DNA from: a virus
Direction: 5' to 3' (one strand)
Virus record (IMG/VR): IMGVR_UViG_3300009684_001783
Location: 1-31,934 of that record
DNA length: 31,934 nucleotides
In this document: positions 1,398 to 30,988 of the stretch, one piece after another
How positions within the stretch are numbered: position 1 is the first letter of the stretch
Layout of the letters: each line of letters begins with the position of its first letter
Program-made: the position numbers and the translations under genes
The notes under the pieces: model-generated
What the model was told of the DNA's origin: nothing
What the model saw: only the letters and a program-made list of their open reading frames with translations
The model's database searches: none

Positions 1398-2321
1398 TTA
1401 CTCCAGCGTACCAAACGTGTTCTTGATTGCCGGCTTGGCTTTTGCTACAGCACCGATCAAGTCTTCCAGCGCCTTGGGATTTTTGGAGAAGTAGTCATAG
1501 TTGACATATACTCCAGCCATCCATGCTACAGTGTTCTTGCTGCTGAACCAACCTTGCAGATTCTGCGGATACGTGCCGCTGGGAATTTTTTGCCACACAT
1601 ACAGAGGTTTACCGTCAATGGCAGTTGCGTTGTTGAAACTCCAGTCATTGGCCCCAACCAAATTCAGCTGATCACCAAAGTCGTTATCAGCTTGCAGCAT
1701 TGTGGCATTGCCGAGTGCAGCAGGGATAATCATACAAGTGGTGATGTTGTTTGCAACACTGCTCAGTGCCAGCGCACCATCTTCAGGTGTAACTTGCACT
1801 TCTGCATAGGCTTTGTTGGTTGCAACAAAGTTTTGCCAAATTACCCATGCACCGGATCCTTCTGGCCCTAGAGCAACGCTTTTGGTATTGTCGCCTGCAA
1901 GTTTGTCTAGATCCTCAACACCTGAATCTTTGCTACAAAGCACATGTAGGAATTCACGAGGTCCTTGCCCAATAATTCGCAGGTTTGCAGCAGCAGCAGG
2001 ATTTTTGCGTTTCAGCAATACTGCGCCATCAGGCTGTCCAATATACGCTTGGCAAGATTCGCCACTTGCAATGGACTCAGGCGTTTGCGGATCGACCACA
2101 GTACGTTGAATGTTATCCCATGTGCCTGACGACGTCATAACATGCAAGTCGATGTTTTTGGACATCTTAAGGAACCCTGCAATATATCCGCCAGTTAGGT
2201 TGTAGGGTTTACCTTCACCGCCTGTACAAAGGTTAACACGCAGTGGTTCGGCAAATGCAGAACCTGCAAGTGTAGCAGTAGCCAGCACAGCGCCGGCAAA
2301 GATAGTGAAAATCTTGTTCAT
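1398..2321 (-). CDS. TAXI-family TRAP transporter periplasmic binding protein
   Basis: Encodes 307 residues. An excellent ribosome site (AGGAGAAAACAG) precedes the ATG. Residues 1-24 form a Sec signal peptide with a Lys near the start, a hydrophobic core and an S-A-F-A cleavage site, so the product should be exported to the periplasm. The mature part has the feel of the TAXI substrate-binding family: a Gly-Gly-Tyr-Ile-Ala stretch near the N-terminus, a QPDGAVLLKR segment, a Leu-rich DLDKLAGD followed by SVALGPEGSGAW, and a helical C-terminal lobe. In bacteria these proteins deliver small organic acids to a TRAP membrane permease. No permease gene is present here, so the protein would have to work with a host permease or as a free scavenging or binding protein. 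It is monocistronic, with a hairpin terminator behind it. Family call fairly confident; substrate unknown. Confidence 0.8.
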   Translation of the reverse strand: MNKIFTIFAGAVLATATLAGSAFAEPLRVNLCTGGEGKPYNLTGGYIAGFLKMSKNIDLHVMTSSGTWDNIQRTVVDPQTPESIASGESCQAYIGQPDGAVLLKRKNPAAAANLRIIGQGPREFLHVLCSKDSGVEDLDKLAGDNTKSVALGPEGSGAWVIWQNFVATNKAYAEVQVTPEDGALALSSVANNITTCMIIPAALGNATMLQADNDFGDQLNLVGANDWSFNNATAIDGKPLYVWQKIPSGTYPQNLQGWFSSKNTVAWMAGVYVNYDYFSKNPKALEDLIGAVAKAKPAIKNTFGTLE

Positions 2322-2362
2322 CTGTTTTCTCCTAGATAAAGTTGTTTACGTTGAGTTGTTGA

Positions 2363-2569
2363 TTATTTGCCATGTACCCATGCATAGCGTACAGTGGCTA
2401 CGCCTTTTGATTCTGAGTAGCAATTGTAACTGATAATTTCATGCCCTTGTGCTCGCAGTGCGTAGATCTGCTTGCCAACATGTTCAATGCCCAACTTCTT
2501 TTTGGCTTTCTTGGCAGTCAGCATCTTGCCAGTTTTGAGATAGTTGAGAACTGTTTGATTCTTACTCAT
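2363..2569 (-). CDS. Small winged-helix/HTH DNA-binding protein
   Basis: Encodes 68 residues, starting at 2569 where AAGGATACACCG precedes ATG; the upstream in-frame extension overlaps the neighbouring gene and lacks a ribosome site. The pattern VLNYLKTGKMLTAKKAKKKLGI followed after a short turn by a helix with QIYALRAQGHEI fits a small winged helix of the type common in T4-like phages: basic helix-turn-helix, then a beta wing (ISYNCYS, VRYAWVHG). It is basic overall. Likely a transcription or replication accessory factor; the target is not known. Confidence 0.7.
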   Translation of the reverse strand: MSKNQTVLNYLKTGKMLTAKKAKKKLGIEHVGKQIYALRAQGHEIISYNCYSESKGVATVRYAWVHGK

Positions 2570-2645: not shown

Positions 2646-3074
2646 TCAAACGCCGTAGAGTTCTGTGACGATTTCGCCTGCACGTTTCATGTCGATTTTG
2701 GCGCCAAACTTGAAACGCAGCGTTTTCATTACGTCGCCTTTGGCAGGTTTGACATCCACATAAGACTCTTGCAGGAATGCACGAACTTCTTCTTCGCTAG
2801 CCATTTGCGGCAGCACAGATTCAAGGATCCTTTTCTCGTGATTGAATGCAATCTTACGGCCAGGATCTGCGGCAACTTTCAAGTTTTCAACGAGTGTTGC
2901 AACAAGCTTTTGCAAGACTTTGATTGCTTCATCTTCAGTTGTAGCGCGGTTACCTGCGTTCTTGCCAACCTTTTCAATTTCACTCAGTGCGAAAGTGATA
3001 GACGCAGCAATGGGATTGCGTTCTTTACGGAGACGCATAGATTCCGTTTTGAGTTTTTCAATCACACTCATCAT
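2646..3074 (-). CDS. YqeY/GatB-tail-like protein
   Basis: Encodes 142 residues from ATG at 3074 (or the adjacent ATG at 3071), one base past the stop of the gene before it. The layout matches YqeY-like proteins, which resemble the tRNA-binding tail of amidotransferase subunit GatB: an N-terminal helix with SVIEKLKTES, a helix with SITFALSEIEKVG, a TTEDEAIKVLQKLV segment, an ILESVLPQMASEEEV segment and a final DMKRAGEIV helix. Family length is about 150 residues. In bacteria the exact role is unsettled, though a tRNA or translation role is suspected. Finding it in the same window as a tRNA, TilS and a CCA enzyme fits a tRNA theme, but that link is inference. Confidence 0.65.
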   Translation of the reverse strand: MMSVIEKLKTESMRLRKERNPIAASITFALSEIEKVGKNAGNRATTEDEAIKVLQKLVATLVENLKVAADPGRKIAFNHEKRILESVLPQMASEEEVRAFLQESYVDVKPAKGDVMKTLRFKFGAKIDMKRAGEIVTELYGV

Positions 3075-5836: not shown

Positions 5837-7693
5837 TCAGCTTGCTGGGTTAGCTTCTACATCAATTGGCCCATCATCTGTAGGTGCGTTTGATTGACTC
5901 TTGTAGATAATTTCACCCATCTTCATCAGGCTTTCACTCAATGATTGCAGTGCAGGTTGCATGTCTTCTACAGTATCTTTTGTCAATGCTTCACGTGCTT
6001 CAGAAAGTTTAACATCCAATTCTGCTTTGAGATCCGCAGGCAGTTTATCTTCATGTTCCTTCATTTGCTTTTCGGCTTGATGAATTTGGGATTCACCAAC
6101 GTTGCGAGTTTCAATTACCACACGCTTTTGCTTGTCAGATTCTGCATTTTCTTCGGCTTCTTTGATCATACGTTTGATATCATCGTCTGACAATCCGCCG
6201 CTGCTTTGGATAGTGACTTTTTGTTCTTTGCCAGTTGCAGAGTCTTTGGCACTGACATTGACAATACCGTTGGCATCAATATCAAATGTGACTTCAATCT
6301 GCGGCAAGCCACGAGGAGCAGGTGCAATACCTTCCAAGTTAAATGTTGCCAGCAGCTTGTTATCGCGGGCCAATTCGCGCTCACCCTGGCACACAGTGAT
6401 TTGAACGCCGGGTTGATTGTCCTGTGCAGTACTAAACGTCTGACTTTTACGAGTTGGAATAGTAGTATTGCGTTCAATCAGTTTGGTGAACACGCCGCCC
6501 AGCGTTTCGATACCCAAGCTTAGCGGGGTAACATCCAACAGCAGCACATCTTTGACATCGCCTTGCAATACACCTGCTTGAATAGCCGCGCCCATGGCAA
6601 CTACTTCGTCAGGGTTAACTGAACTATTGAGAGGTTTACCAAAATATGCTTTAAGTGCATCTCGTACTGCTGGTATACGAGTGGTACCACCTACTAAGAG
6701 TATATCTTTAACATCGTTAACTGACATATTTGCATCGTTAAGTGCTAATTTACAGGGTGCTATAATTCTATCAACTAGGTCACTAGTAAGGCTATTAAAT
6801 TTAGACCTTGATAGTTTGCAAACCAAATGTTTAGGACCACTAGCATCCGCAGTAATGTATGGCAAATTAACATCGGTTTCTAGACTGTTACTAAGTTCAA
6901 TTTTGGCTTTTTCTGCCGCTTCGCGTAAACGTTGTAGTGATACACTGTCTGTGGTCAAGTCTATACCGTAGTCTTTTTTAAATTGGTCGGCCATCCAGGA
7001 TACTATACGAGAATCGAAATCACTACCACCAAGATGCGTATCACCGTTTGTACTCAATACTTCGATGACACCGTCACTGATATCCAATACAGACACGTCG
7101 TGAGTACCGCCACCGGCATCTACAACGATGATTCTACCATTACTATTAGTGTCTACTGCAAATGCCAACGCAGCAGCAGTCGGTTCGTTAATAATACGCA
7201 GCACTTCCAGACCAGCGATTTTACCAGCATCTTTAGTTGCCTGACGTTGTGCATCATTGAAATATGCAGGAACTGTGATCACTGCTTGATGAACTTTTTC
7301 GCCTAAATATTCTTCCGCTGTTTCTTTCAGCTTGGATAAAATTTTTGCAGAAATCTCTTGTGGCGAATATGTTGTATCATTTGCACTAATAAGTGCATCA
7401 TTGTTAGCAGATGCAACAATGGTATATGGCAATAGTTTTCTGTCATCTGTAACAGACTTATCACTGAACTTACGACCGATCAGACGTTTAACTTCAAAAA
7501 TTGTATTTTTACTATTGGTTACAGACTGACGCTTGGCAGCTTGCCCGACCAACTGCTCGGTACCTGTCCACGATACTATACTGGGTGTTGTACGCATACC
7601 CTCTGAATTTTCTATTATTTTGGGGGTAGAACCATCTATAAATGCAATTGCACTATTTGTTGTACCCAAATCTATTCCGATTATCCGACTCAT
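5837..7693 (-). CDS. dnaK: Hsp70 chaperone DnaK
   Basis: Encodes 618 residues, nearly the length of bacterial DnaK (about 638). ATPase-domain signatures are in place: [10 protein letters not shown] (5-14), a [20 protein letters not shown] block, [35 protein letters not shown] and [11 protein letters not shown]. The linker ([18 protein letters not shown]) and a full substrate-binding domain with helical lid follow. The second phosphate motif reads DAGGGTHD where DLGGGTFD is usual. The extreme C-terminus (DVEANPAS) differs from the EEVxD-like tail of the cellular protein. The ribosome site is AAAGGAGACAAC, with a promoter-like TTGAAA/TATATT pair upstream. No DnaJ or GrpE is in the window, so it would rely on host or distant phage partners. 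A phage DnaK would be expected to support folding or virion assembly. Confidence 0.95.
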
Positions 7694-7758
7694 GTTGTCT
7701 CCTTTAAAAGCAAGATTATTCTGATAGCCTATATAAATGTAGCACTACCAGTAGTTTA

Positions 7759-7787
7759 AATATAATAGAGAGTTACTTAAATTTCAA
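7759..7787 (-). promoter_or_regulatory. Promoter for dnaK
   Basis: Minus-strand TTGAAA (7782-7787), a 17-base spacer and TATATT (7759-7764), about 65 bases before the dnaK ATG. TTGAAA also resembles a heat-shock -35, but the -10 is of vegetative type, so sigma70-like control is the simpler reading. Confidence 0.5.
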
Positions 7788-7801
7788 TCACAACTGCATA
7801 A

Positions 7802-7882
7802 TTATTTGCAATTTTTATGCCATCTTATCAAATTTGTTTTGGTAGTAGATTTACCACAATATTGGCATGTTTCATATGGCAA
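7802..7882 (-). pseudogene. Orphan zinc-finger remnant, homing-endonuclease type
   Basis: Between the YcgN-like gene and dnaK a short minus-strand reading of about 26 residues, starting at a TTG at 7882, contains CQYCGKSTTKTNLIRWH followed by a spaced Cys (C-x2-C, then R-W-H and N-C-K). This C2HC module is the one often found at the C-terminus of phage HNH or GIY-YIG homing endonucleases. Here it is isolated, overlaps the end of the YcgN-like gene in another frame, and has no nuclease domain. The simplest reading is the scar of a lost endonuclease gene; a very small real protein cannot be excluded. Confidence 0.4.
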
Positions 7883-8312
7883 TAGTTTGCTCTAAATATT
7901 GAATTAACTGCATTATATTGATTTTATCCTCGTTGACTTCTACCCATCCAACAACACTGATTCCTGCTGCGTTTACAGAGGATCTAGTACCGCTTATCAA
8001 TGGATGCCAGTCGTACAGTGGTAGTCCATCTTTCAACAGTTTGTATGCACAAGTTTTAGGCAGTAAGCCAGGCGTGTCAATGGCATCTATGGTAATTTTT
8101 ACACAGTTTTTAACACGCTGTTGTCTATTGTCATAATCAGTACACCGGGCAGTTTTAACATCCAGTAGTTTGCATGCCACTCTACAGCTTTTGACTTCGT
8201 TGTCTCGCCATGCTTTGACCAAGCAACAGCGGCCGCAACCATCGCAGAGGCTATCCCACTGCGACTCAGTCATAGACTCAAGCGGCGTTGTTTCCCACCA
8301 ATTGTCCGTCAC
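7872..8312 (-). CDS. YcgN/UPF0260-like CxxCxxCC metal-binding protein
   Basis: Encodes 146 residues with the GTG start at 8312, whose bases overlap the upstream TGA (GTGA); a longer start at 8327 is possible. The product follows the UPF0260/YcgN layout: WW...MTESQWDSLCDGCGRCC, then VACKLLD, RCTDY, an R-x-x-V-x-x-C segment, LPKTCAYKL, and WHPLISGT with an AGISV patch. The clustered cysteines probably bind iron or zinc. The length is close to that of the bacterial protein (about 150). The function of bacterial YcgN is not firmly known. Its presence in a phage-like region, next to an SGNH hydrolase, suggests host-gene capture. Confidence 0.85.
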   Translation of the reverse strand: MTDNWWETTPLESMTESQWDSLCDGCGRCCLVKAWRDNEVKSCRVACKLLDVKTARCTDYDNRQQRVKNCVKITIDAIDTPGLLPKTCAYKLLKDGLPLYDWHPLISGTRSSVNAAGISVVGWVEVNEDKINIMQLIQYLEQTIAI

Positions 8313-8971
8313 GGTAGATCGAACCACTTGCCAACATCAGTCTTTATTAGACTAGACATACTATCAGCAACAGCAGCATTTAATTGTACAGACATGTGAT
8401 TTTCGTTCATATCTGTTAGGTTTATCCCGTGCCTTGTTATAAGATCGAATAGAGGTTCTCTGCAACACGGCCCGCTAGCAAACTCAGTTGTGGTACATTC
8501 CGCAGGGAAGCAGTGAAAATGATATACCTTCTTGTGCGGATTAGACGATATATGTTGTGCAAGTATTTCATCACATTTCTTTATGATTAATTCATGCACC
8601 AGTTCGTGGTATGGTTGGTGGTAGAGATATTTGAAGTAACTAAGACCTGCATTCCATAGATCAGCATCTGGAAAGCTATTGCTATCATGTGACAACATAC
8701 CTTGTAAGCCACGTTTTTCAAAATCAAAACAACTGCTGGTGTTTAACGGATATAGCTGGCTATTGTATAACCTGCGATGATCAGTATACAACATGAAATA
8801 CATGTCAGCATCATACAGATGCGTCATTAAATCAAAGTATGCTTGACCAATGCTTGTGCCGCCGTGACCACGACAGCTGATTTCAGCACCAATGTTTTTT
8901 GCTAAAATATCTGTCCAGCTATAATCTCGATTGCTACTGCAAAAGCTATCGCCTATGAATGCTACCTTCAT
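8309..8971 (-). CDS. SGNH/GDSL-like hydrolase
   Basis: Encodes 220 residues. The N-terminal FIGDSFCSS contains the block-I GDS nucleophile; RGHGGTSIGQAY fits the block-II Gly region; and ENHMSVQLN near the end fits the block-V His (usually D-x-x-H). An oxyanion-type Asn region is not obvious. SGNH enzymes remove acyl groups from lipids or glycans, and many phages carry them as tail or envelope esterases. No signal peptide is seen. No clear ribosome site precedes the ATG. Family call moderately confident. Confidence 0.7.
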   Translation of the reverse strand: MKVAFIGDSFCSSNRDYSWTDILAKNIGAEISCRGHGGTSIGQAYFDLMTHLYDADMYFMLYTDHRRLYNSQLYPLNTSSCFDFEKRGLQGMLSHDSNSFPDADLWNAGLSYFKYLYHQPYHELVHELIIKKCDEILAQHISSNPHKKVYHFHCFPAECTTTEFASGPCCREPLFDLITRHGINLTDMNENHMSVQLNAAVADSMSSLIKTDVGKWFDLP

Positions 8972-8987
8972 ACTATATCACTGCTTA

Positions 8988-9440
8988 TTAAGCATAGCTG
9001 CTGAGGTCTACTGGTCGCATGCGTATAATTGGCGTAGGTTCTGCTGGCGGTTCGCCCTTGCTAATACCATTATGTACATGGTTCATACCGTATATGACTT
9101 TGCCCCATACAGTGTAGTTGTTGTCTAGGAACCGTGCATCGCCGAAGCAGATGAAAAATTGATCACTTGCACTGTTTGGATCGTTGGTACGGGCCATGCT
9201 GCAAATGCCTTCCAAGTGAGGCACGTCGTTAAACTCTGCTTCTAGCTGCGGCAATGCTTTTTGAGTCCATCCACCTTGTGCCATAAAGCCTTGAATAACA
9301 CGGTGAAATACTGTACCGTCATACATGCCTTCTGTTGCTTGCGATAGTATTTGTGCAACGTGCTTGGGTGCTTTGTCCGGATAGCATTCTATTAGTACAG
9401 TGCCAGATGGCAAGTCCATTTTGATAATAGGTTTGTTCAC
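8988..9440 (-). CDS. Cyclophilin-type peptidyl-prolyl isomerase
   Basis: Encodes 150 residues from a GTG start with AGGAGAACGCT upstream. The cyclophilin core is clear: VFHRVIQGFMAQGG (44-57, with catalytic Arg47), SMARTNDPNSASDQFFICFGD (about 81-101) and NNYTVWGKVIYGM. It is a cytoplasmic single-domain form with no signal peptide. It catalyses cis-trans isomerisation of prolyl bonds and would act with the Hsp70, Hsp20, ClpS and ClpX genes around it. Phage-encoded cyclophilin is uncommon but plausible. Confidence 0.92.
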   Translation of the reverse strand: MNKPIIKMDLPSGTVLIECYPDKAPKHVAQILSQATEGMYDGTVFHRVIQGFMAQGGWTQKALPQLEAEFNDVPHLEGICSMARTNDPNSASDQFFICFGDARFLDNNYTVWGKVIYGMNHVHNGISKGEPPAEPTPIIRMRPVDLSSYA

Positions 9441-9492
9441 AGCGTTCTCCTGTTGTGTTTTATACAGTATAACACCATTATTACAAATAACA

Positions 9493-9516
9493 AAAAAGGT
9501 CCCGAAAGACCTTTTT
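9493..9516 (-). terminator. Intrinsic terminator after clpS
   Basis: AAAAAGGTC (9493-9501) pairs with GACCTTTTT (9508-9516) over a 6-base loop; the minus-strand copy also ends in a run of T. It lies between the ClpS gene and the cyclophilin gene and can work in both directions because of its A/T flanks. Confidence 0.8.
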
Positions 9517-9552
9517 GTAGCTGACAGAAGTTTCTAAAATTTCTATTCTAGC

Positions 9553-9864
9553 TTATTCCACAGGAGTCATATCTGCCACAAGCGGATAACCATTTTTACG
9601 TGCAATGGCAATGGTTTCGTCGCGCTTTTGTGTTGCAACCTCGTGACTGTAAGTACCAGCAATACCACGGTCATTGTTGTGAATATTCATCATAATATCT
9701 TGTGCTTCTTCAAAGCTGCGATGGAATATCTGCATCAACACAAGTACAACAAACTCCATACTGGTTTGGTCATCATTAAGCAACCATACATTCCACATAC
9801 GTGGCGGACTAAGAGTGACTTTGTCTACCACTGTAACTACTGTATCTGTTTTAATGTTTGCCAT
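9553..9864 (-). CDS. clpS: ClpS N-end-rule protease adaptor
   Basis: Encodes 103 residues, starting at ATG with TAGGAG upstream. The ClpS core is complete: WNVWLLNDDQTSMEFVVLVL (24-43), IMMNIHNNDRGIAGTY and EVATQKRDETIAIARKNGYPL. Residues lining the N-degron pocket in E. coli ClpS (Asn34, Asp35, Asp36, Thr38, Met40, His66) are matched here by Asn30, Asp31, Asp32, Thr34, Met36 and His62. In bacteria ClpS hands N-degron substrates to ClpAP. No ClpA is in this window, so the phage ClpS would presumably act through host ClpA. It sits between Hsp20 and cyclophilin, each in its own terminator-bounded unit. Confidence 0.93.
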   Translation of the reverse strand: MANIKTDTVVTVVDKVTLSPPRMWNVWLLNDDQTSMEFVVLVLMQIFHRSFEEAQDIMMNIHNNDRGIAGTYSHEVATQKRDETIAIARKNGYPLVADMTPVE

Positions 9865-9890
9865 GTAAACTCCTATGTGTGTTAAAGTAT

Positions 9891-9918
9891 GCAGTTGACC
9901 TGTTGTAAGGTCAACTGC
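9891..9918 (-). terminator. Hairpin terminator after hsp20
   Basis: GCAGTTGACC (9891-9900) pairs perfectly with GGTCAACTGC (9909-9918) over an 8-base loop. It follows the hsp20 stop at 9928 on the minus strand and is followed by an A/T-rich but not T-only stretch. Confidence 0.65.
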
Positions 9919-9927
9919 TGTAGTCGA

Positions 9928-10401
9928 TTAAACTTGATCAGTGTTGACCTTTACATCAACAACATTGTTGGTGGTAATGGGTATGTTAATACCTTTTGCA
10001 GGTTCTGGTACTTCACGCAGCAATTCGATAATCAACAATCCGTCTTCGAGTTTAGCAGAAATCACTTTGATATGTTCTGCAAGTGTAAACTGTCGTTCAA
10101 AATCTCGTGCAGCAATACCGCGATGTATCCAGTTTCGTTCAGCCTGTTCATCTGCTTTGCTGCCTTTGACACTTAGAATACGATCATTGGTAATATTGAT
10201 ATCCAACTCGCCAAGTTTAAAACCTGCAACTGCAAGCTCTAACTTGTACACGCCGTTGTCGTGAATCAAATTATACGGCGGATATGTGGCGGGATTGCTT
10301 GTAACTCTTGCCATCATAGGCTCAAAGCCTATTGCAAAACGATTGAAATCTCTAAAAAGATCTTCCATAGAATTAATAACTGTAGATGGTAATTGACGCA
10401 T
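9928..10401 (-). CDS. Small heat-shock protein Hsp20 (IbpA-like)
   Basis: Encodes 157 residues, with a very strong ribosome site (TAGGAGGTATAAC) before ATG. The alpha-crystallin domain is clear: YPPYNLIHDNGVYKLELAVAGF, LDINITNDRILSVKG, RNWIHRGIAARDFERQFTLAEH, then ISAKLEDGLLIIELLREVPE. The GINIPI tail has an I-x-I element used for oligomer packing. It is an ATP-independent holdase that keeps unfolded proteins soluble. Hsp20 genes are known in T4-like cyanophages, so this fits a related phage. The promoter and hairpins just upstream (10437-10492) suggest regulated expression. Confidence 0.95.
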   Translation of the reverse strand: MRQLPSTVINSMEDLFRDFNRFAIGFEPMMARVTSNPATYPPYNLIHDNGVYKLELAVAGFKLGELDINITNDRILSVKGSKADEQAERNWIHRGIAARDFERQFTLAEHIKVISAKLEDGLLIIELLREVPEPAKGINIPITTNNVVDVKVNTDQV

Positions 10402-10436
10402 GTTATACCTCCTAATCTAGCGAAGCACTACCTTAC

Positions 10437-10492
10437 GTGGGCCCCGTAGGCACCCACACACTATATTTAATAGCATGTGGGTGTTTTGTCAA
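10437..10492 (-). promoter_or_regulatory. hsp20 promoter overlapping competing hairpins
   Basis: On the minus strand TTGACA (10487-10492) and TAAATA (10464-10469) are 17 bases apart. An inverted repeat CACCCACA (10451-10458) with TGTGGGTG (10476-10483) spans the -10 box. A second hairpin, GTGGG (10437-10441) with CCCAC (10452-10456), shares the left arm, so the two structures exclude each other. The first would also fold at the end of the clpX transcript; the second would lie at the 5' end of the hsp20 leader. Confidence 0.45.
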
Positions 10493-10495
10493 GAT

Positions 10496-11749
10496 TCAGT
10501 TGGCAGCTTCTGCGGATTTGTTGTATACCTTCAACGGCTCGCAGCGATCATTTGCAACGTCTTCGGTAATAACAATACGGCGTACACCGTCATGCGATAG
10601 TGTAGGCAGTTCGAACTGCATACGTAGTAAAACTTTTTCAAGAATACTACGCAATCCACGAGCACCTGTTTTACGCTCCATTGCTTGTTTTGCAATAGCA
10701 TGAAGTGCATCGGGCTGGAATTCCAAGTCAACTCCATCAAGTCCAAACATTTTTTGGTACTGTTTGACAATTGCGCTCTTGGGTTCGGTAAGAATGTTTA
10801 CCAAATCTTCTTCCTTCAAATCGCAGAACGGCACCATAACAGGTATGCGTCCAATCAATTCAGGAATAAGACCAAACTTGATAAGGTCTTCTTGCCGAGT
10901 TTGAGAAATCAAATCAAACGTGTCTTTGTCGCTGATAGTTTGGCTGCTAAGAGTTGCACCAAATCCAATACCACTGCCTTTATCCAATCGCTTGTTGATG
11001 ATGTCAGTGAGTCCAACAAATGCACCGCCCAGAATAAACATGATATTCTTGGTGTTGATCATAATAAATTCACCATGCGGATTCTTACGACCACCAGTGG
11101 GCGGTACTTTGACATCGCAGCCTTCGATCATTTTCAGCAGGGCTTGTTGTACGCCTTCGCCGCTTACGTCACGTGTGATGCTGCTGTTCTCACTCTTGCG
11201 ACCTTTTTTATCAATTTCGTCGATGTAAACAATGCCGCGTTCGGTTTTTTCAATGTCTTGGTCTGCTGCTTGATACAGTCGTGCAATTGCTTCTTCTACA
11301 TCAAGACCAACATAACCACTTTCAGTCAAGCTGGTAGCATCAATAATGACCATGGGTACATCCAGCAGTTTTGCAGCTTGCTGAATAATGTAGGTCTTAC
11401 CAACACCAGTAGGCCCGATAAACATAAGGTTTGTCTTGTCGATCTCTACACCGTCGATAATGGAATTATCAACACGTTTCATGTGCGAATAGATTGCAAC
11501 ACTCAACATCATCTTGGCTTGATGTTGTCCAACCATTCGCTCATCCAAATATTCCATAATTCTCTGTGGTGTCAGTTGTGTAGGATTGGACTTTGGCGGT
11601 ACAAATTCCTCTTTTAGTACACCGTGGCACAGTTCCACGCATTCGTTACATATATAAACGTCATTACCGCTGATTAGCTTATTGACTTCGTTTTGGTTCT
11701 TGCCGCAGAAACTGCAAGAAACGGTAGGACGTGAAGTATCCCGGCCCAT
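10496..11749 (-). CDS. clpX: ATP-dependent Clp protease ATP-binding subunit ClpX
   Basis: Encodes 417 residues, full length (E. coli 424). The zinc-binding domain has Cys12, Cys15, Cys34 and Cys37. Walker A GPTGVGKT is at 112-119, the pore-1 loop GYVG at 145-148, Walker B with DEID at 177-180, and the sensor and C-terminal domain regions follow (KTGARGLRS). The IGF loop that docks on ClpP is intact (261-263, in GSGIGFGA), so the protein should engage a ClpP peptidase. No ClpP gene is in the window, making host ClpP the likely partner. It begins 3 bases after the upstream gene with GAGGG as ribosome site. It could redirect host proteolysis or act as an unfoldase on phage complexes. Confidence 0.97.
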
Positions 11750-14820: not shown

Positions 14821-15273
14821 TCATTCCACATAAAGTGCAGAATTACCGTCGTGTTCTATGCATTCAACACTTCTTATAGTAACACGATGTGTCATATCCT
14901 GTGTATGAAGCCATGTCATAACATGAATGAACACATGCTCTGCAAACTTTTCACAACCTACACCTGGTAATATACGCAAATCACACAGTTTTTTATCACT
15001 CATTTGTTTGAACATTGCCAGTTCTGGATCATCTGCTGCAACCAATGTAGTGTGATCAAATTGTGTTCTTAACCAGTCTTTTATATGTGACATATAAGTG
15101 TCGTCAAATGTCCAGTCGTTTTCATCCAACCGGTGACATTCGAATACAAACTTAAAACTCAGTGCAGCACCATGTAGTAGATCGCAGCGATTGTGTATTG
15201 CACGCCACTGCCTATAACAACAACTTAGTCCTTCTACGTTTGTGCATGATTTAGTGCTAATCCAAAATGCCAT
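14821..15273 (-). CDS. QueD/6-pyruvoyl-tetrahydropterin synthase-like protein
   Basis: Encodes 150 residues, with AAGGACACAAC before ATG. The T-fold pattern of QueD/PTPS is recognisable: a CDLLHG motif (Cys30, His34), SFKFVFECHRLDENDW, FDHTTLVAADDPE (Asp73-His74), a GCEKFAEHV helix and a C-terminal VTIRSVECIE strand with a Glu that binds the pterin. QueD makes 6-carboxy-tetrahydropterin, an early step toward queuosine and 7-deazaguanine DNA bases. The usual HGH is HGA here, and the His expected ahead of the catalytic Cys appears as Tyr20 or is shifted (CCYRQW), so the zinc site looks incomplete. It may be inactive, use other ligands, or have a new substrate. No QueC, QueE or FolE is nearby. 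Confidence 0.65.
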   Translation of the reverse strand: MAFWISTKSCTNVEGLSCCYRQWRAIHNRCDLLHGAALSFKFVFECHRLDENDWTFDDTYMSHIKDWLRTQFDHTTLVAADDPELAMFKQMSDKKLCDLRILPGVGCEKFAEHVFIHVMTWLHTQDMTHRVTIRSVECIEHDGNSALYVE

Positions 15274-17296: not shown

Positions 17297-17548
17297 TTAA
17301 ACACTTAGCCTAAACTGCATTAGTTCTTCTTGGCTGGCAAATCCAATATATGCATGTCTTGCATCAAACCACCACGCCCAGGGTTGTTTACAATTATGCT
17401 CGCACCATTCTATCAATTCGTTTTCTATATAAGGCATTGTAGTATCTTCGTAATACGCAGTATGCCTATACACAAACGGTACATCGTCAGGCGGGATATT
17501 ACCCCGCCTGAACTTGCTTTCAGTGGACTTACGCCGGGAAGAAGTCAT
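17297..17548 (-). CDS. Small phage protein with acidic-Phe-type C-terminus
   Basis: Encodes 83 residues from ATG at 17548, overlapping the nitroreductase stop by 20 bases. An alternative start at 17437 gives 46 residues and would place the hairpin at 17487-17511 outside the gene. The C-terminus PWAWWFDARHAYIGFASQEELMQFRLSV resembles the other members ending at 3375, 3689 and 22147 (PWAW, beta strand, acidic residues, Phe). The true start is uncertain. Function unknown. Confidence 0.6.
   Translation of the reverse strand: MTSSRRKSTESKFRRGNIPPDDVPFVYRHTAYYEDTTMPYIENELIEWCEHNCKQPWAWWFDARHAYIGFASQEELMQFRLSV
17487..17511 (-). terminator. GC-rich hairpin after the nitroreductase
   Basis: TCAGGCGGG (17487-17495) pairs perfectly with CCCGCCTGA (17503-17511) over 7 bases, 18 bases after the nitroreductase stop codon. 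There is no T-run, so termination is uncertain. It lies inside the longer version of the next gene, where it would encode FRRGNIPPD. Confidence 0.45.
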
Positions 17549-18134
17549 ATATCATAACCTGCTCACGGGCAAGTTGGGTCTTGGGATGGGGAATACCTTG
17601 TGGGATACCAATTGCAATCAGCATGCCCACAACATGGTTGGCAGGCATATTGATAGCAGTGCCAACATCAACAGGGTTGAAGCCAATCATTGGACTGCTA
17701 GCATATCCCAAGTCAGTGGCTGCAAGCATGATTGCGGTAGCAGCCATACCCACACTGCGCATGGCTTCATCGCGTTGCATTTCAGGATTTTTGTCATAAA
17801 ATCCGCGAGTCATACCTGCCATAGTTTTAGCAGTGTCTTCGCCATTGGCATCCCAATAACGTTCGGTATTGTCATTCCACGCATTGAGATCTGCACAGAC
17901 TGCAAGCAATACACTGTTGACAGCAACTTGAGGTTGATCCCAGGCAGCACGCTTGATCTTTTCTTTGATACCACGGTCTCGAATTGCAACAAAGCGCCAA
18001 TTTTGAATATTAAAGCTGGTAGGTGTGGCACGAGCAGCGTCGATAATAGTATTGAGATCGTCGTCTGACATCATATGGCTGCTATCAAAGTCTCGTTGTG
18101 TACGTCTGGTGGCAATTACGTCTTTAAATTCCAT
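17529..18134 (-). CDS. Nitroreductase-family FMN oxidoreductase
   Basis: Encodes 201 residues from ATG at 18134 with AAGGAGAC upstream; the longer in-frame start at 18218 lacks a ribosome site. The FMN-binding pattern is clear: ATRRTQRDFD near the N-terminus, ARATPTSFNIQNWRFV (phosphate-binding and Trp), SVGMAATAIMLAATDLGYASSPMIGF and a C-terminal IPHPKTQL. Nitroreductases use NAD(P)H to reduce nitro or quinone compounds. A second member lies at 25999, suggesting a redox role for the phage in this host. Confidence 0.9.
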   Translation of the reverse strand: MEFKDVIATRRTQRDFDSSHMMSDDDLNTIIDAARATPTSFNIQNWRFVAIRDRGIKEKIKRAAWDQPQVAVNSVLLAVCADLNAWNDNTERYWDANGEDTAKTMAGMTRGFYDKNPEMQRDEAMRSVGMAATAIMLAATDLGYASSPMIGFNPVDVGTAINMPANHVVGMLIAIGIPQGIPHPKTQLAREQVMIYDFFPA

Positions 18135-18233
18135 GTCGGTCTCCTTATGGTATAACAGTGTATAGTCATTTGGTCGGTAAAACAATGTGTAGATGCGCAG
18201 AGTGATCGTGCAGGTCAAAAGAAACGTAAGTTG

Positions 18234-20103: not shown

Positions 20104-20180
20104 TGGTAGGGAATGCAGGACTCGAACCAGCAACCTACGGATTATGAGTCCGGCGCTCTAACCAATTGAGCTAATCCCCC
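20104..20180 (-). tRNA. tRNA-Ile2 (anticodon CAU, lysidine type)
   Basis: On the minus strand a 77-nt cloverleaf folds: acceptor GGGGGAT/ATTCCCT, D-arm GCTC/GAGC, anticodon stem CCGGA/TCCGT (27-43 not paired), loop CTCATAA with anticodon CAT, T-loop TTCGAGT, discriminator A and encoded CCA at 20104-20106. The T-stem has a T-T mismatch. CAT alone could be Met, but the weak 27-43 pair, the similarity to bacterial Ile2 and the TilS gene 8 bases upstream point to tRNA-Ile2, which reads AUA only after TilS converts C34 to lysidine. One 3'-CCA is already encoded. Confidence 0.9.
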
Positions 20181-20188
20181 AATGTGTA

Positions 20189-20794
20189 TTATATAGCACG
20201 TTCCTTTTGATCATGCAACCGTTTCATAATCATTTTATGAATGCCGGGATTTACTTTAAGAACATGCGGCATCAACTCCTTGCGGATGTAGTTGCGAGTC
20301 AGTTCCAGCTTTTCATTGCTGGTATCTTCAATCCACGGAATATCACGTTGCGTACACCAGTTGCGCAACTCAAACTTTCTAGTACCTAGAAACGGACGTA
20401 CCACGTTGCCACGATGCAGTTGCGGTAGTTTTGGCTGGCCATTCAAGCTACCCCAGACCCAGGTTTCAACTGCATCGTCGAGATGATGTGCAGTAACTAC
20501 AGTTTCGCCCAATGCGTCTAAGAATCCATAACGCTGGTCGCGCCAATATGCTTCCAAGCTTTCGTTTCTACCACGTTCTTTATTCACAGTGCCGATCACC
20601 AATGGGATATTTTCAGTATCGCAATAGCTTTGAACAAACTGCAATGAGTCTTTGCTGTTGTCACTGCCGTGATCAAAATATGCAGCAGCGACAGTGTGAT
20701 TCCTACGCAAGAAATCCAATGCAGCCATAGAATCTACGCCGCCAGAACAGGCAACATACAATTCACGCGGCAGTTTTTCCATAAGCTTGATCAT
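20189..20794 (-). CDS. tilS: tRNA(Ile)-lysidine synthase TilS, N-terminal catalytic domain
   Basis: Encodes 201 residues. The PP-loop ATPase motif SGGVDS is at 17-22, the HHLDDAVET motif at 103-111, RPFL at 133-136 and the EDTSN ... RNYIR motif (156-171) that holds the tRNA anticodon region. These are the defining motifs of TilS. Most bacterial TilS proteins have about 430 residues with two extra C-terminal domains; this one keeps only the catalytic part (Aquifex TilS has about 311). It converts C34 of tRNA-Ile2 to lysidine. The tRNA lies 8 bases after its stop, so enzyme and substrate are on one transcript. Confidence 0.92.
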   Translation of the reverse strand: MIKLMEKLPRELYVACSGGVDSMAALDFLRRNHTVAAAYFDHGSDNSKDSLQFVQSYCDTENIPLVIGTVNKERGRNESLEAYWRDQRYGFLDALGETVVTAHHLDDAVETWVWGSLNGQPKLPQLHRGNVVRPFLGTRKFELRNWCTQRDIPWIEDTSNEKLELTRNYIRKELMPHVLKVNPGIHKMIMKRLHDQKERAI

Positions 20795-25998: not shown

Positions 25999-26637
25999 AT
26001 GTCAACAGATTACAGAGATATCATGAAAGCCGTGATTAGGAGTCAGCATTGCCAGCGAAACTTCGATCTATCAAAGCAAATGCCACAAGAAGACTTGGAG
26101 TTGTTAGTACAAGCTGCTACCAATTGCCCAAGCAAGCAGAATATTTCGTTCTACGATCTACATGTGTTAACAGATCCTGAATTAATTGCAAAGATTCACG
26201 TGTTGTCGACAGGTGTTACAGCAGACAACGTTGTAACCGGCAAACATGTGCCTACAACAAATAGTCAAACATTGGCTAATGTGTTGTTTGTTTATGTACA
26301 TAAAGAATTGGATGAAATTACGCCAAAGGCATTTGAAAAGTGGAGCAATGCAGATGAGTCAGAGCTCAAAGTATTCGAACGTGATGTCAATACTGCAATA
26401 GGTATTTCATCTGGCTATGTTAACTTTATTGCCAGCATGCTGGGATATGCAACAGGCTGCTGCCAGTGCTTCCAAAAGGATGAAATTGGCAAGTTGATGG
26501 GACTAAAGCGTGGTCCAGATCTGCTTATGGGCATCGGCTTCAATGACGATTCCAAAAATCGCAGAGTCCATGCAACCGACTCAGAGCTGGTATTCCCAAC
26601 TCGTACCAAAGAAAAGATAGAAGTCTTCTATCGCTAA
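25999..26637 (+). CDS. Nitroreductase-family FMN oxidoreductase
   Basis: Encodes 212 residues on the plus strand. GAAGGGAG precedes ATG. The FMN-binding elements are SQHCQRNFD near the start, TNCPSKQNISFYDLHV, a middle NTAIGISSGYVNFIASMLGYATGC helix and a GLKRGPDLLMGIG segment. It differs clearly from the nitroreductase at 17529 and is not a recent duplicate. The gene stands alone with its own promoter and a convergent hairpin behind it. Confidence 0.88.
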   Translation: MSTDYRDIMKAVIRSQHCQRNFDLSKQMPQEDLELLVQAATNCPSKQNISFYDLHVLTDPELIAKIHVLSTGVTADNVVTGKHVPTTNSQTLANVLFVYVHKELDEITPKAFEKWSNADESELKVFERDVNTAIGISSGYVNFIASMLGYATGCCQCFQKDEIGKLMGLKRGPDLLMGIGFNDDSKNRRVHATDSELVFPTRTKEKIEVFYR

Positions 26638-26686: not shown

Positions 26687-27010
26687 TCAATAGTCGGGCT
26701 TAACACTTTCTATAATATTGCCCGTTAGCAATTTGAATAACATTTCAAACTCTGCATTTACAAACTCAATATCAACAGGTTTACCATCTATAACTTGATT
26801 GTGTACATTCTTGGCAAATCGCAGTTTATAGTTGCCTATGCCAATGTGTTCTGCAAGAAATGCCACAAGGTGTGTACATGTACTATGGTACTGTTGATTG
26901 GTAATTGTAATTGTATGCGGACCTTTAGATGCGACGATCTGCTGAGTGGATCTGCGAGTTGGTGCATTGTTATATACTGCGGTCTGGTAGGTGGTATAAG
27001 TTTTAGTCAT
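26687..27010 (-). CDS. Hypothetical protein
   Basis: Encodes 107 residues. Its ATG overlaps the stop of the CCA-adding enzyme gene (ATGA), so it is translationally coupled. Thr/Tyr-rich N-terminus; a FVNAEFEMLFKLLTGNIIE helix at the end. No motif recognised. Confidence 0.65.
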   Translation of the reverse strand: MTKTYTTYQTAVYNNAPTRRSTQQIVASKGPHTITITNQQYHSTCTHLVAFLAEHIGIGNYKLRFAKNVHNQVIDGKPVDIEFVNAEFEMLFKLLTGNIIESVKPDY

Positions 27011-28179
27011 ACCACCACCAGGGCCATCAGTTCTTCTTTAGTAGCAACATAGCCACTGTCTGCCCAAGCATCTTTCAGCTGTCGCAGAACGTCCCCCATT
27101 GCTTTACCTTGCTTCATACCAACCGCAAACAGATCTTCCCCCGTTACCGGGAACGGATCAAATTCCCAATGCACAAGAGCATTTTGGCTCCATTCATCGC
27201 GTTTTTCAAATGCAGCAAGTTCTGCAACCCATTTACGAGGTGCACCATCTACTGCAATCAGACGACGCAGATCGTGTCGTTTAGCATATGGTCCTTTGAT
27301 ATGATTACACAGCCACAGTGCATGGTCACGTTCACTACTGCTCCATTTCAAATTAGCCGATGCCTTTTCAACAACAGTGTGGCGGAGATTCATCCATGCT
27401 GCCATTACAACTTCGGGATCTTGCGACCATTGCAGCAGTTCATTGATAAGGTCTGGCATATCCGGCGCACGTACAGCACCTTCAATTGAAATGTATGGCC
27501 ACATGCCAATGTCAGACATCACACGAAATAGTGCAGAACCGCGAGGATGAATAATGATACGTTTCAGTTCGCTCCATACACGCTCGCGACTGATTTTTTC
27601 CAGTCCTTCGAAGTTGTCCAAGATAGCTTGCCATGCAGCAGGATCAATGTTATCTTGCTTGCCAAATCGTGCTTGAAAACGGAACCAGCGCAGGATGCGC
27701 AGGTAGTCTTCCTTAACACGAGCATCTGCATCGCCAACAAAGCGAACAATCTGATTACGCAGATCCTCTTGTCCACCAAACGGATCAATCAGCACACCGT
27801 CAAAGGTCATTGACATGGCATTGAACGTAAAGTCTCGGCGACTCAGATCATCCATCCAATTGCGAGTGTATGCAACAGTTGCATGACGCCCATCGTGATT
27901 AGTTTCTGTACGCAGACTGGTGATTTCGTAGCCAACATGGTCAATTACAACAGTAATCGTGCCGTGTTGCAGACCAGTTTCTGCATACTTGTAGCCATTT
28001 GTTGTGTAGATTTCCAGTTGTTCAGTGGGATCTGCATCAGTGCAAAAGTCCAGATCCTTGGGATCTTCGCCTGCAACGATATCACGCACTGCACCGCCTA
28101 CTAGGCGGATATCAAATCCACGAGCTTGAAAAGCTGCCCGCAGTGTACGGAGTTCTTCTGTGATATACTTGTTGAACAT
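27007..28179 (-). CDS. cca: CCA-adding tRNA nucleotidyltransferase/poly(A) polymerase
   Basis: Encodes 390 residues from ATG at 28179, with AGGTG upstream; a start at 28233 would precede the promoter. The class II nucleotidyltransferase signature LVGGAVRD is at 26-33, the metal-binding DLDF at 42-45, then RRDFTFNAMSM and EDYLRILRWFRFQARFG. These are the catalytic and nucleotide-specifying motifs of the family. It would repair or add the 3'-CCA of tRNAs, or polyadenylate RNA. It fits with the tRNA and TilS genes. Confidence 0.92.
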   Translation of the reverse strand: MFNKYITEELRTLRAAFQARGFDIRLVGGAVRDIVAGEDPKDLDFCTDADPTEQLEIYTTNGYKYAETGLQHGTITVVIDHVGYEITSLRTETNHDGRHATVAYTRNWMDDLSRRDFTFNAMSMTFDGVLIDPFGGQEDLRNQIVRFVGDADARVKEDYLRILRWFRFQARFGKQDNIDPAAWQAILDNFEGLEKISRERVWSELKRIIIHPRGSALFRVMSDIGMWPYISIEGAVRAPDMPDLINELLQWSQDPEVVMAAWMNLRHTVVEKASANLKWSSSERDHALWLCNHIKGPYAKRHDLRRLIAVDGAPRKWVAELAAFEKRDEWSQNALVHWEFDPFPVTGEDLFAVGMKQGKAMGDVLRQLKDAWADSGYVATKEELMALVVV

Positions 28180-28205
28180 GTGGCACCTGTTGCTGTTGTT
28201 TGTGC

Positions 28206-28233
28206 ATAATAACATAACAGCAACAGGTGTCAA
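28206..28233 (-). promoter_or_regulatory. Sigma70-like promoter for the CCA-enzyme gene
   Basis: Minus-strand TTGACA (28228-28233), a 16-base spacer and TATTAT (28206-28211). A perfect -35 and 5-of-6 -10. The predicted start site, about 28199, gives a 20-base leader containing the AGGTG ribosome site. Confidence 0.6.
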
Positions 28234-29952: not shown

Positions 29953-30666
29953 ATGGCGAGAAAATTTGTGTCTCGTGCAACGGCTGTACATCGTATCGCC
30001 ATGCCGCCAAGAGTCGTCATACCCACCGAAGAACAAATTCAAAATAAGATAATTGCTGCCAGTGTACAGCAAGAAGCAATAACTGCTGTTGTACCAGAGC
30101 CAGTTATAGAGCCAATAGCTGAACCGGAACCGGAACCAGTTATAGAGCCAGAGCCAATAGCTGAGCCAGAACCGGAACCAGTTATAGAACCAGAGCCAAT
30201 AGCTGAGCCAGAACCGGAACCAGTTATAGAACCAGAGCCAATAGCTGAGCCAGAGCCAATAGCTGAACCGGAACCGGAACCAGTTATAGAACCAGAACCA
30301 ATCGCTGAACCAGAACCTGCTGATAAAAAGTATACCATAGCAATATTGTTTAGAGGTACGATTAGAGGTGATGTGAATACTGTTATAGAATTCATACAGA
30401 ACAGTATAGACGAATTAAGAGCAAATAATCACATAGTGCATGCATATCTTGCAACATGGGGAACTACACACGATCCTAAGATCAGTGCGTTACTGTCTGC
30501 TATAAAATTTGAAAACGTTATTTTACAAACTGCACCGGCATTAGAACAAATTCAAAGATTTGTTAAAAAATCTGCGATGGGATGCTATCCGATTAGTAAT
30601 ATGTACCGCATGTATTACAAAAACAAAAACTGCGTTGGATGTAATAACAAGTGCATACAATTATGA
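29953..30666 (+). CDS. Glycosyltransferase-like protein, N-terminal part (frameshifted)
   Basis: Encodes 237 residues on the plus strand, ending at a TGA in an apparently shifted frame. Residues 1-45 form a basic N-terminus. A Glu/Pro/Ile repeat tract follows (units like [14 protein letters not shown]). From about residue 122 a domain starts with [21 protein letters not shown], like a WavE-like or GT-type enzyme, with an [11 protein letters not shown] segment. The natural continuation ([16 protein letters not shown]) lies in another frame at 30560-30988. So the reading is either broken by an indel or joined by a +1 frameshift at the A5 runs (30619-30629). No close ribosome site is obvious. 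Confidence 0.65.
30094..30318. repeat. Tandem 42-base Glu/Pro repeat
   Basis: About four to five copies of a 42-base unit encode repeats of the type [14 protein letters not shown] in the glycosyltransferase-like gene. Copies differ by single bases (GAGCCA/GAACCA, GAACCGGAACC), so slippage is easy. It makes a flexible charged linker. Too regular in frame and too low in complexity to be CRISPR. Confidence 0.9.
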
Positions 30667-30988
30667 TTACATTATTCACAGTAGAACAGATGTCAAAGTA
30701 ACATTTGGAGAACATCTTTCAAACTGGCTTGTAAAAGGATATTATACAAGTCCACCAAGCGGTGCACCGTGGTTATGTGATTGGGTAGGTGCAGCAGAGT
30801 CCAAAATTATGAAAGATGCATGGGATTACGGCACACTTGAACGACTAGGGCAACTGCTAGACGACAAACATGTACCAGAACATATATTCATAGACCTTAT
30901 GTCTGCACATAGTATACAGCACAGAACTGCACCTGTCGCAAGTATCTTTCTCGATCCACACCGAGTAGAGTCCGGCGACAGGTTATAA
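30560..30988 (+). CDS. Glycosyltransferase-like protein, C-terminal part
   Basis: An open frame shifted by +1 from the 29953 gene, continuing its domain. After the crossover the sequence [26 protein letters not shown] fits the family pattern (Y-D-Y-I-I-x-S-R-T-D) of WavE-like glycosyltransferases, with a [22 protein letters not shown] segment and a C-terminal helix that ends with [17 protein letters not shown]. No separate ribosome site. This is either the second part of a frameshifted gene or the result of a sequencing indel; the first few residues here are not the real start. Confidence 0.6.

Follow-up and report, generated by a model that had tools for sequence, protein, structure and literature searches.

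The window analysed here, a linear IMG/VR record of 31,934 nucleotides, carries a gene for a TAXI-like protein that we read as a ligand-binding envelope protein, one that would take an amino-acid-type ligand, would work independently of any TRAP permease and would control the cell envelope through an inner-membrane partner. We judge the probability of this reading to be evenly balanced. Viral orphan binding proteins are usually read as uptake boosters. The family to which this gene belongs is widespread, with a strictly kept pocket, and the phages, like several of the host genomes examined, lack the cognate permease; in many loci a tiny membrane protein takes the permease's place. If the reading is true, phages use a transporter receptor for a purpose other than transport, and a precise, testable module stands where there had been an annotation.

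The open reading frame begins with ATG and has no internal stops (Table 1). The N-terminus of its product, MNKIFTIFAGAVLATATLAGSAFA^EP, is by inspection a textbook Sec/SPI signal, comparable signals are visible in 12 of the 12 phage relatives first aligned, and residues 1-18 of the structural model have low pLDDT, as expected for a signal peptide; the signal peptide proposed in the first-pass annotation is thereby borne out. Pfam NMT1_3 (PF16868) matched the protein with 46.5 bits, above the gathering cut-off of 27. With NCBIfam TIGR02122 (TRAP_TAXI) the score was 52.7 bits, below the cut-off of 84.35, and the protein is therefore taken as a divergent TAXI relative. The match to PHROG 6856, a family of unknown function, had an E-value of 1e-57 and covered residues 8-302 of 307. 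Phage relatives were found in 29 of 50,697 phage records, a patchy spread, with identities of up to 44% to the isolate-phage members of the PHROG 6856 family. A scan of viral contigs with the single protein gave one match and missed close relatives. A syntenic counterpart is on a viral contig of 518,643 bp (locus L191), where the TAXI-like protein is 71% identical to that of the window.

Table 1. Features at and around the TAXI-like gene, in window coordinates
Feature	Position	Strand	Basis or remark
TAXI-like periplasmic ligand-binding protein, PHROG 6856 family	1398..2321	(-)	307 aa; profile, fold, L191 synteny
Shine-Dalgarno AGGAG	2329..2333	(-)	7 nt 5' of ATG; from sequence
Predicted Sec/SPI signal peptide, codons 1-24	2250..2321	(-)	AXA motif AFA before E25
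Tyr40, equivalent of VcGluP Y45, ligand contact	2202..2204	(-)	36/36 family members
Gln96, equivalent of VcGluP Q93, ligand contact	2034..2036	(-)	36/36 family members
Glu123, equivalent of VcGluP E125, ligand contact	1953..1955	(-)	36/36 family members
Small winged-helix protein HTH_39	2363..2569	(-)	Pfam PF14090, 4.5e-6; in place of the 69-aa membrane protein of L191
YqeY-like protein	2646..3074	(-)	Pfam PF09424, 1.9e-9; upstream of the TAXI-like gene also in L191 and L002

The TAXI-type body proposed in the same annotation stood up to fold comparison, and homology to TAXI proteins goes well past what chance would give. A profile built from 12 phage proteins matched VcGluP (8s4j) at 9.6e-19 and TtGluBP (1us4) at 9e-16, and its significant PDB matches were TAXI structures only; phmmer with the single window protein found no PDB match at E <=1. 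The AlphaFold2 model, made from an alignment of 14 rows, had a pLDDT of 87.9 and a pTM of 0.83. When PDB folds were ranked against this model by VIA-align, six TAXI entries came first (Z 23.0-24.5), among them VcGluP, VCA0144, TtGluBP and the Ehrlichia TAXI protein, and the next family reached 14.8; Foldseek agreed. As modelled, the window protein thus has the TAXI fold of cluster F binding proteins. A DctP, ABC or TTT binding protein was rejected, the TAXI entries standing about 8-10 Z units higher. Separately, Bug/TTT-type binding proteins of uncultured Caudovirales were seen among the BFVD matches, so orphan phage binding proteins belong to more than one family.

VcGluP contacts L-glutamate through Y45, S75, Q93, E125, Y200 and M201, and its affinity for glutamate falls 213-fold in the Y45A mutant and 990-fold in Q93A (PMC11574862). 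The equivalents of Y45, Q93, D95, E125, S155 and G156 were invariant in all 36 phage-family members, and the S75 position was always Ser or Thr. In canonical TAXIs of Pseudomonadota (n=50), Q93 was present in 37 and E125 also in 37. The domain-2 positions Y200, M201 and P205 are altered in the phage family relative to VcGluP. Because the pocket residues above are kept, the ligand of the phage family is likely of the amino-acid type, judging from these residues, and because the domain-2 contacts are altered its side chain may be a different one.

In a tree with canonical TAXIs only, a 100/100 branch set all 30 phage and prophage-type rows apart from the rest. Orphan bacterial relatives (L096-L106) came to light when 398 genomes were searched with a profile, and with these added the phage and orphan proteins together stood apart from the canonical permease-linked TAXIs at 94/92, with the phage proteins no longer a single clade (three label changes). 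Monophyly of the phage proteins was thus rejected, and the claim made here is therefore one of a phage-plus-orphan branch, not of a pure phage clade. Since that branch separates from the canonical TAXIs, the window gene was not recently copied from a host TRAP gene, and the phage members were not nested within host TAXIs as derivation from a host transporter would have it for a PstS-like auxiliary gene. Capture of a host gene was also rejected: the phage-family gene was detected at E below 1e-30 in only 2 of the 298 Agrobacterium-family genomes, plasmids gave a single weak match, and no close bacterial donor was found. The branch has a cysteine signature as well. Four cysteines (C32, C90, C129 and C196) are present in 32 of the 36 phage-family members and in 7 of the 10 orphan bacterial relatives analysed; each of the pairs C32+C90 and C129+C196 comes or goes as a unit, two members having one pair and two having none. 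These pairs are absent from 49 of 50 canonical TAXIs and present in one. The natural reading is that C32-C90 and C129-C196 would form two periplasmic disulfides.

The absence of a permease beside the gene, recorded in the first-pass annotation, extends to the whole window. No DctM permease (PF06808) was found in the 29 phage records (the window and 28 others), in which control families were detected, and a linked or available TRAP_fused permease of the TAXI type was found neither for these records nor in three of the four bacterial genomes with a phage-type copy (G019, G021 and G073); the fourth, G020, has both the copy and the permease. Among 39 Agrobacterium species, which may not include the host of the window phage, TRAP_fused exceeded its cut-off in two and GltS in three. 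In the wider family the TAXI-type permease is present in 188 of 298 genomes, so its absence is not universal.

These counts bear on an idea put forward as a possibility in the first-pass annotation, that this is an auxiliary metabolic gene boosting host uptake of amino acids or organic acids during infection. On that reading, as has been proposed for cyanophage PstS, the high-affinity product would feed the host TAXI-TRAP or some other permease. The conserved pocket of a known glutamate-binding TAXI would suit such a role, as would genome G020. TAXI proteins normally serve permeases, and for BP0403, a TAXI protein of Bordetella pertussis, the proposed partner is GltS, a non-TRAP carrier (PMC12344293). 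However, the pocket is kept without a matching transporter in the phages or in several host genomes, which makes a simple uptake booster less likely; GltS is itself rare in Agrobacterium, the phage gene was not captured from host TAXIs, and its domain-2 contacts differ. Because the window phage's own host may have a TAXI permease, the uptake idea is only weakened, but it no longer leads, and we regard it as possible but unlikely.

What stands beside the gene in place of a permease is, in many loci, a small membrane protein. In annotated phages, small membrane CDSs (<=75 aa) occupied 8 of 20 adjacent positions versus 4 of 103 others (Fisher p 4e-5), and with uniform ORF calling a small membrane ORF was found at 16 of 26 loci (a count that includes a probably spurious match at L201) versus 13 of 107 control genes (Fisher p 6e-7); the loci are phylogenetically related, and both p-values are therefore too strong. 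The adjacent membrane ORFs are 37-69 aa long and of several unrelated sequence types. For example, in rhizobial phages the protein has 52-62 aa and is encoded downstream of the TAXI-like gene. The upstream position is taken by one of 37-39 aa in Bradyrhizobium phages and EBPR siphovirus 2, and by one of 56-60 aa in Erwinia jumbo phages; the Erwinia proteins match PHROG 1470, which bears the label 'TciB-like inhibition of cell division or resistance to colicin'. At L191, the gene for a 69-aa two-helix membrane protein shares 4 bp with the start of the TAXI-like gene, and next in the cassette comes a Band_7/SPFH lipoprotein. A similar membrane protein and an SPFH-like ORF lie directly upstream of the TAXI-like gene at L205. 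The resulting giant-phage cassette of microprotein, SPFH/Band_7 lipoprotein and TAXI-like gene thus occurs in two gene orders (L191 6486-8487 and L205 3888-5918). No membrane partner adjoins the gene in the window, L002, Vibrio 2.275.O or Noxifer, and when the rest of the window was searched by tblastn, neither the membrane protein nor the SPFH protein of L191 had a homologue there.

Other neighbours were seen in single loci. An Erwinia jumbo phage encodes TerB (PF05099) near its TAXI-like gene (L011:1489-1914), and a sub-threshold TerB was seen at a Mesorhizobium locus (L032:4499-4936). TerB was rejected as a regular partner and kept only as a lead, being adjacent only in SNUABM6 and, below the cut-off, at L032; in a few other records it lies elsewhere. 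Downstream of the TAXI-like gene at the same Mesorhizobium locus, two ORFs (L032:6593-7797) resemble a MotA/ExbB-type channel protein and its partner; Pfam gave no match for them. At L206, the ORF upstream looks like a VWA protein.

A periplasmic protein paired with a small membrane protein could also serve superinfection exclusion or lysogenic conversion, the two together blocking DNA entry by later phages. The gene order in Atu_ph08, PBC5 and L014-L020 is in keeping with this, since there an annotated regulator or XRE-like ORF immediately precedes the TAXI-like gene and a membrane ORF of 52-56 aa comes after it, and the PHROG 1470 label of the Erwinia partners points the same way. The comparison is with the Imm/Sp pair of T4, a likeness in working and not in homology, drawn from general knowledge. 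A plug, however, would not need a strictly conserved ligand pocket, and we consider exclusion distinctly improbable as the role of the gene.

That the gene belongs to a phage, as had been proposed, is confirmed. The window encodes phage-family topoisomerase II subunits, a homing endonuclease and a tRNA nucleotidyltransferase; its topoisomerase II subunit is nearest to those of the jumbo phages Phosso (57%), Atu_ph07 and Vibrio 2.275.O and has relatives on 60 viral contigs. The window and L191 have in common a block with the order PPIase, DnaK, adenylyltransferase, metallophosphoesterase, YqeY, TAXI-like gene and gene 171, and the closest viral relatives of the L191 TAXI-like gene (60-75%) are on further contigs. 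A bacterial origin of the contig was rejected on the phage families, the jumbo-phage topoisomerase II and this synteny. Between the window and L191, the TAXI-like gene has a dN of 0.23 and a dS of about 1.6, giving a dN/dS of about 0.14 with dS near saturation; the neighbouring YqeY gene is alike (dN 0.21, dS 1.6). With dN far below dS, as in YqeY, the TAXI-like gene is under purifying selection. An empty-site search through the downstream gene (171-752) found no relative. The patchy distribution might suggest a hitch-hiker or recent host-gene capture without any phage role, but the conserved locus, the constraint on the gene, the intact ORFs in more than 30 loci and the lack of a close bacterial donor make this very improbable.

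Several further genes of the window deserve mention in their own right. A chaperone and proteolysis row (5837-11749, minus strand) comprises DnaK (618 aa, 64% identical to Sinorhizobium DnaK) and PPIase-like, ClpS-like, Hsp20 and ClpX-like ORFs. A tRNA-related set on the minus strand (14821-15273, 20104-20180, 20189-20794 and 27007-28233) comprises a QueD-like ORF, a tRNA-Met gene 92% identical to that of Acidovorax phage ACP17, a TilS-like ORF and the tRNA nucleotidyltransferase. Two nitroreductase-looking proteins are encoded on this 32-kb phage fragment, at 17529-18218 (minus strand) and 25999-26637 (plus strand), and only the former matches a nitroreductase PHROG. At 29953-30666 (plus strand) there is a long EPEPEP repeat, and the segment after it seems to run on in a different frame, around 30560-30988, which may point to a frameshift.

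The preferred reading, an envelope function independent of a TRAP permease, can be set out as follows. The TAXI-like protein would be Sec-exported to the periplasm of the infected cell, where its two lobes would bind a small amino-acid-like ligand, most likely glutamate or a related zwitterion. In most relatives it would be made together with the tiny membrane protein, to which some megaphages add the SPFH-domain lipoprotein, and the ligand-bound form would signal to, or gate, an inner-membrane target. Possible outputs are superinfection exclusion, control of envelope stress and the steering of a non-TRAP host importer; phages would have kept an orphan, disulfide-stabilised TAXI branch for such a purpose. 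The lack of an adjacent membrane partner at the window locus speaks against the envelope reading, as do the shortness and unrelated types of the membrane ORFs in relatives, the permease of genome G020 and the chance that the window's host, like 188 of 298 wider-family genomes, has a TAXI permease. A broader proposal, tentative and on balance doubtful, is that phages of ~50 to >500 kb share a hitherto unrecognised envelope module in which a disulfide-stabilised TAXI-like sensor and a membrane protein of 37-69 aa, sometimes with an SPFH lipoprotein, TerB or VWA proteins, would read a periplasmic amino-acid-type ligand and control the membrane without a TRAP permease.

A TRAP solute-receptor-like protein has been reported from two Ralstonia jumbo phages, phiRP12 and phiRP31, in a list that also has ABC transporter subunits (PMC5468394), and GenBank relatives are already labelled, for instance, 'putative TRAP transporter solute receptor'. 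The novelty implied by the first-pass annotation is therefore smaller: 29 isolate-phage records already contain relatives, some of them annotated. Within the literature searched, no functional study of phage TAXI-like proteins was found, and the features that appear to be new are the signature in pocket residues and cysteines, the shortage of permeases and the association with a small membrane protein.

Among known systems, the PstS of cyanophages is likewise a phage-encoded orphan periplasmic binding protein, of a different family and specific for phosphate; unlike PstS, the TAXI-like family has its cognate permease missing from several host genomes. The BP0403 TAXI-GltS case is another TAXI protein without a TRAP permease, but BP0403 is a multi-domain lipoprotein encoded beside gltS, and no gltS was found near the phage genes read here. 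The orphan bacterial proteins (L096-L102) are chromosomal, and many of them have the same four cysteines and no permease within the loci read, of roughly 3.8 kb; several, unlike the phage family, are without Q93 and E125; at L097-L099 the TAXI-like domains are fused behind a long Ser-rich region and adjoin DUF2491 (YjfK-type) genes. The PHROG 6856 proteins of Atu_ph08 (Agrobacterium), PBC5 (Sinorhizobium) and RHph_I1_18 (Rhizobium) are members of one family with the window protein and have the same cysteines and pocket; the window differs from them in its giant-phage lineage, in having no adjacent membrane ORF and in having Pro-Arg-Glu where most relatives have His-Arg-Glu. Compared with VcGluP/VC0430 (8s4j, 9ibo) and TtGluBP (1us4), the window protein is without a permease, scores below the TIGR02122 cut-off, has altered domain-2 contacts and only 19% identity, and its two cysteine pairs differ from C53-C67 and C191-C216 of VcGluP; it has in common with them the fold (Z 24.5 and 23.1), the signal peptide and the pocket formed by Y45, S/T75, Q93, D95, E125, S155 and G156.
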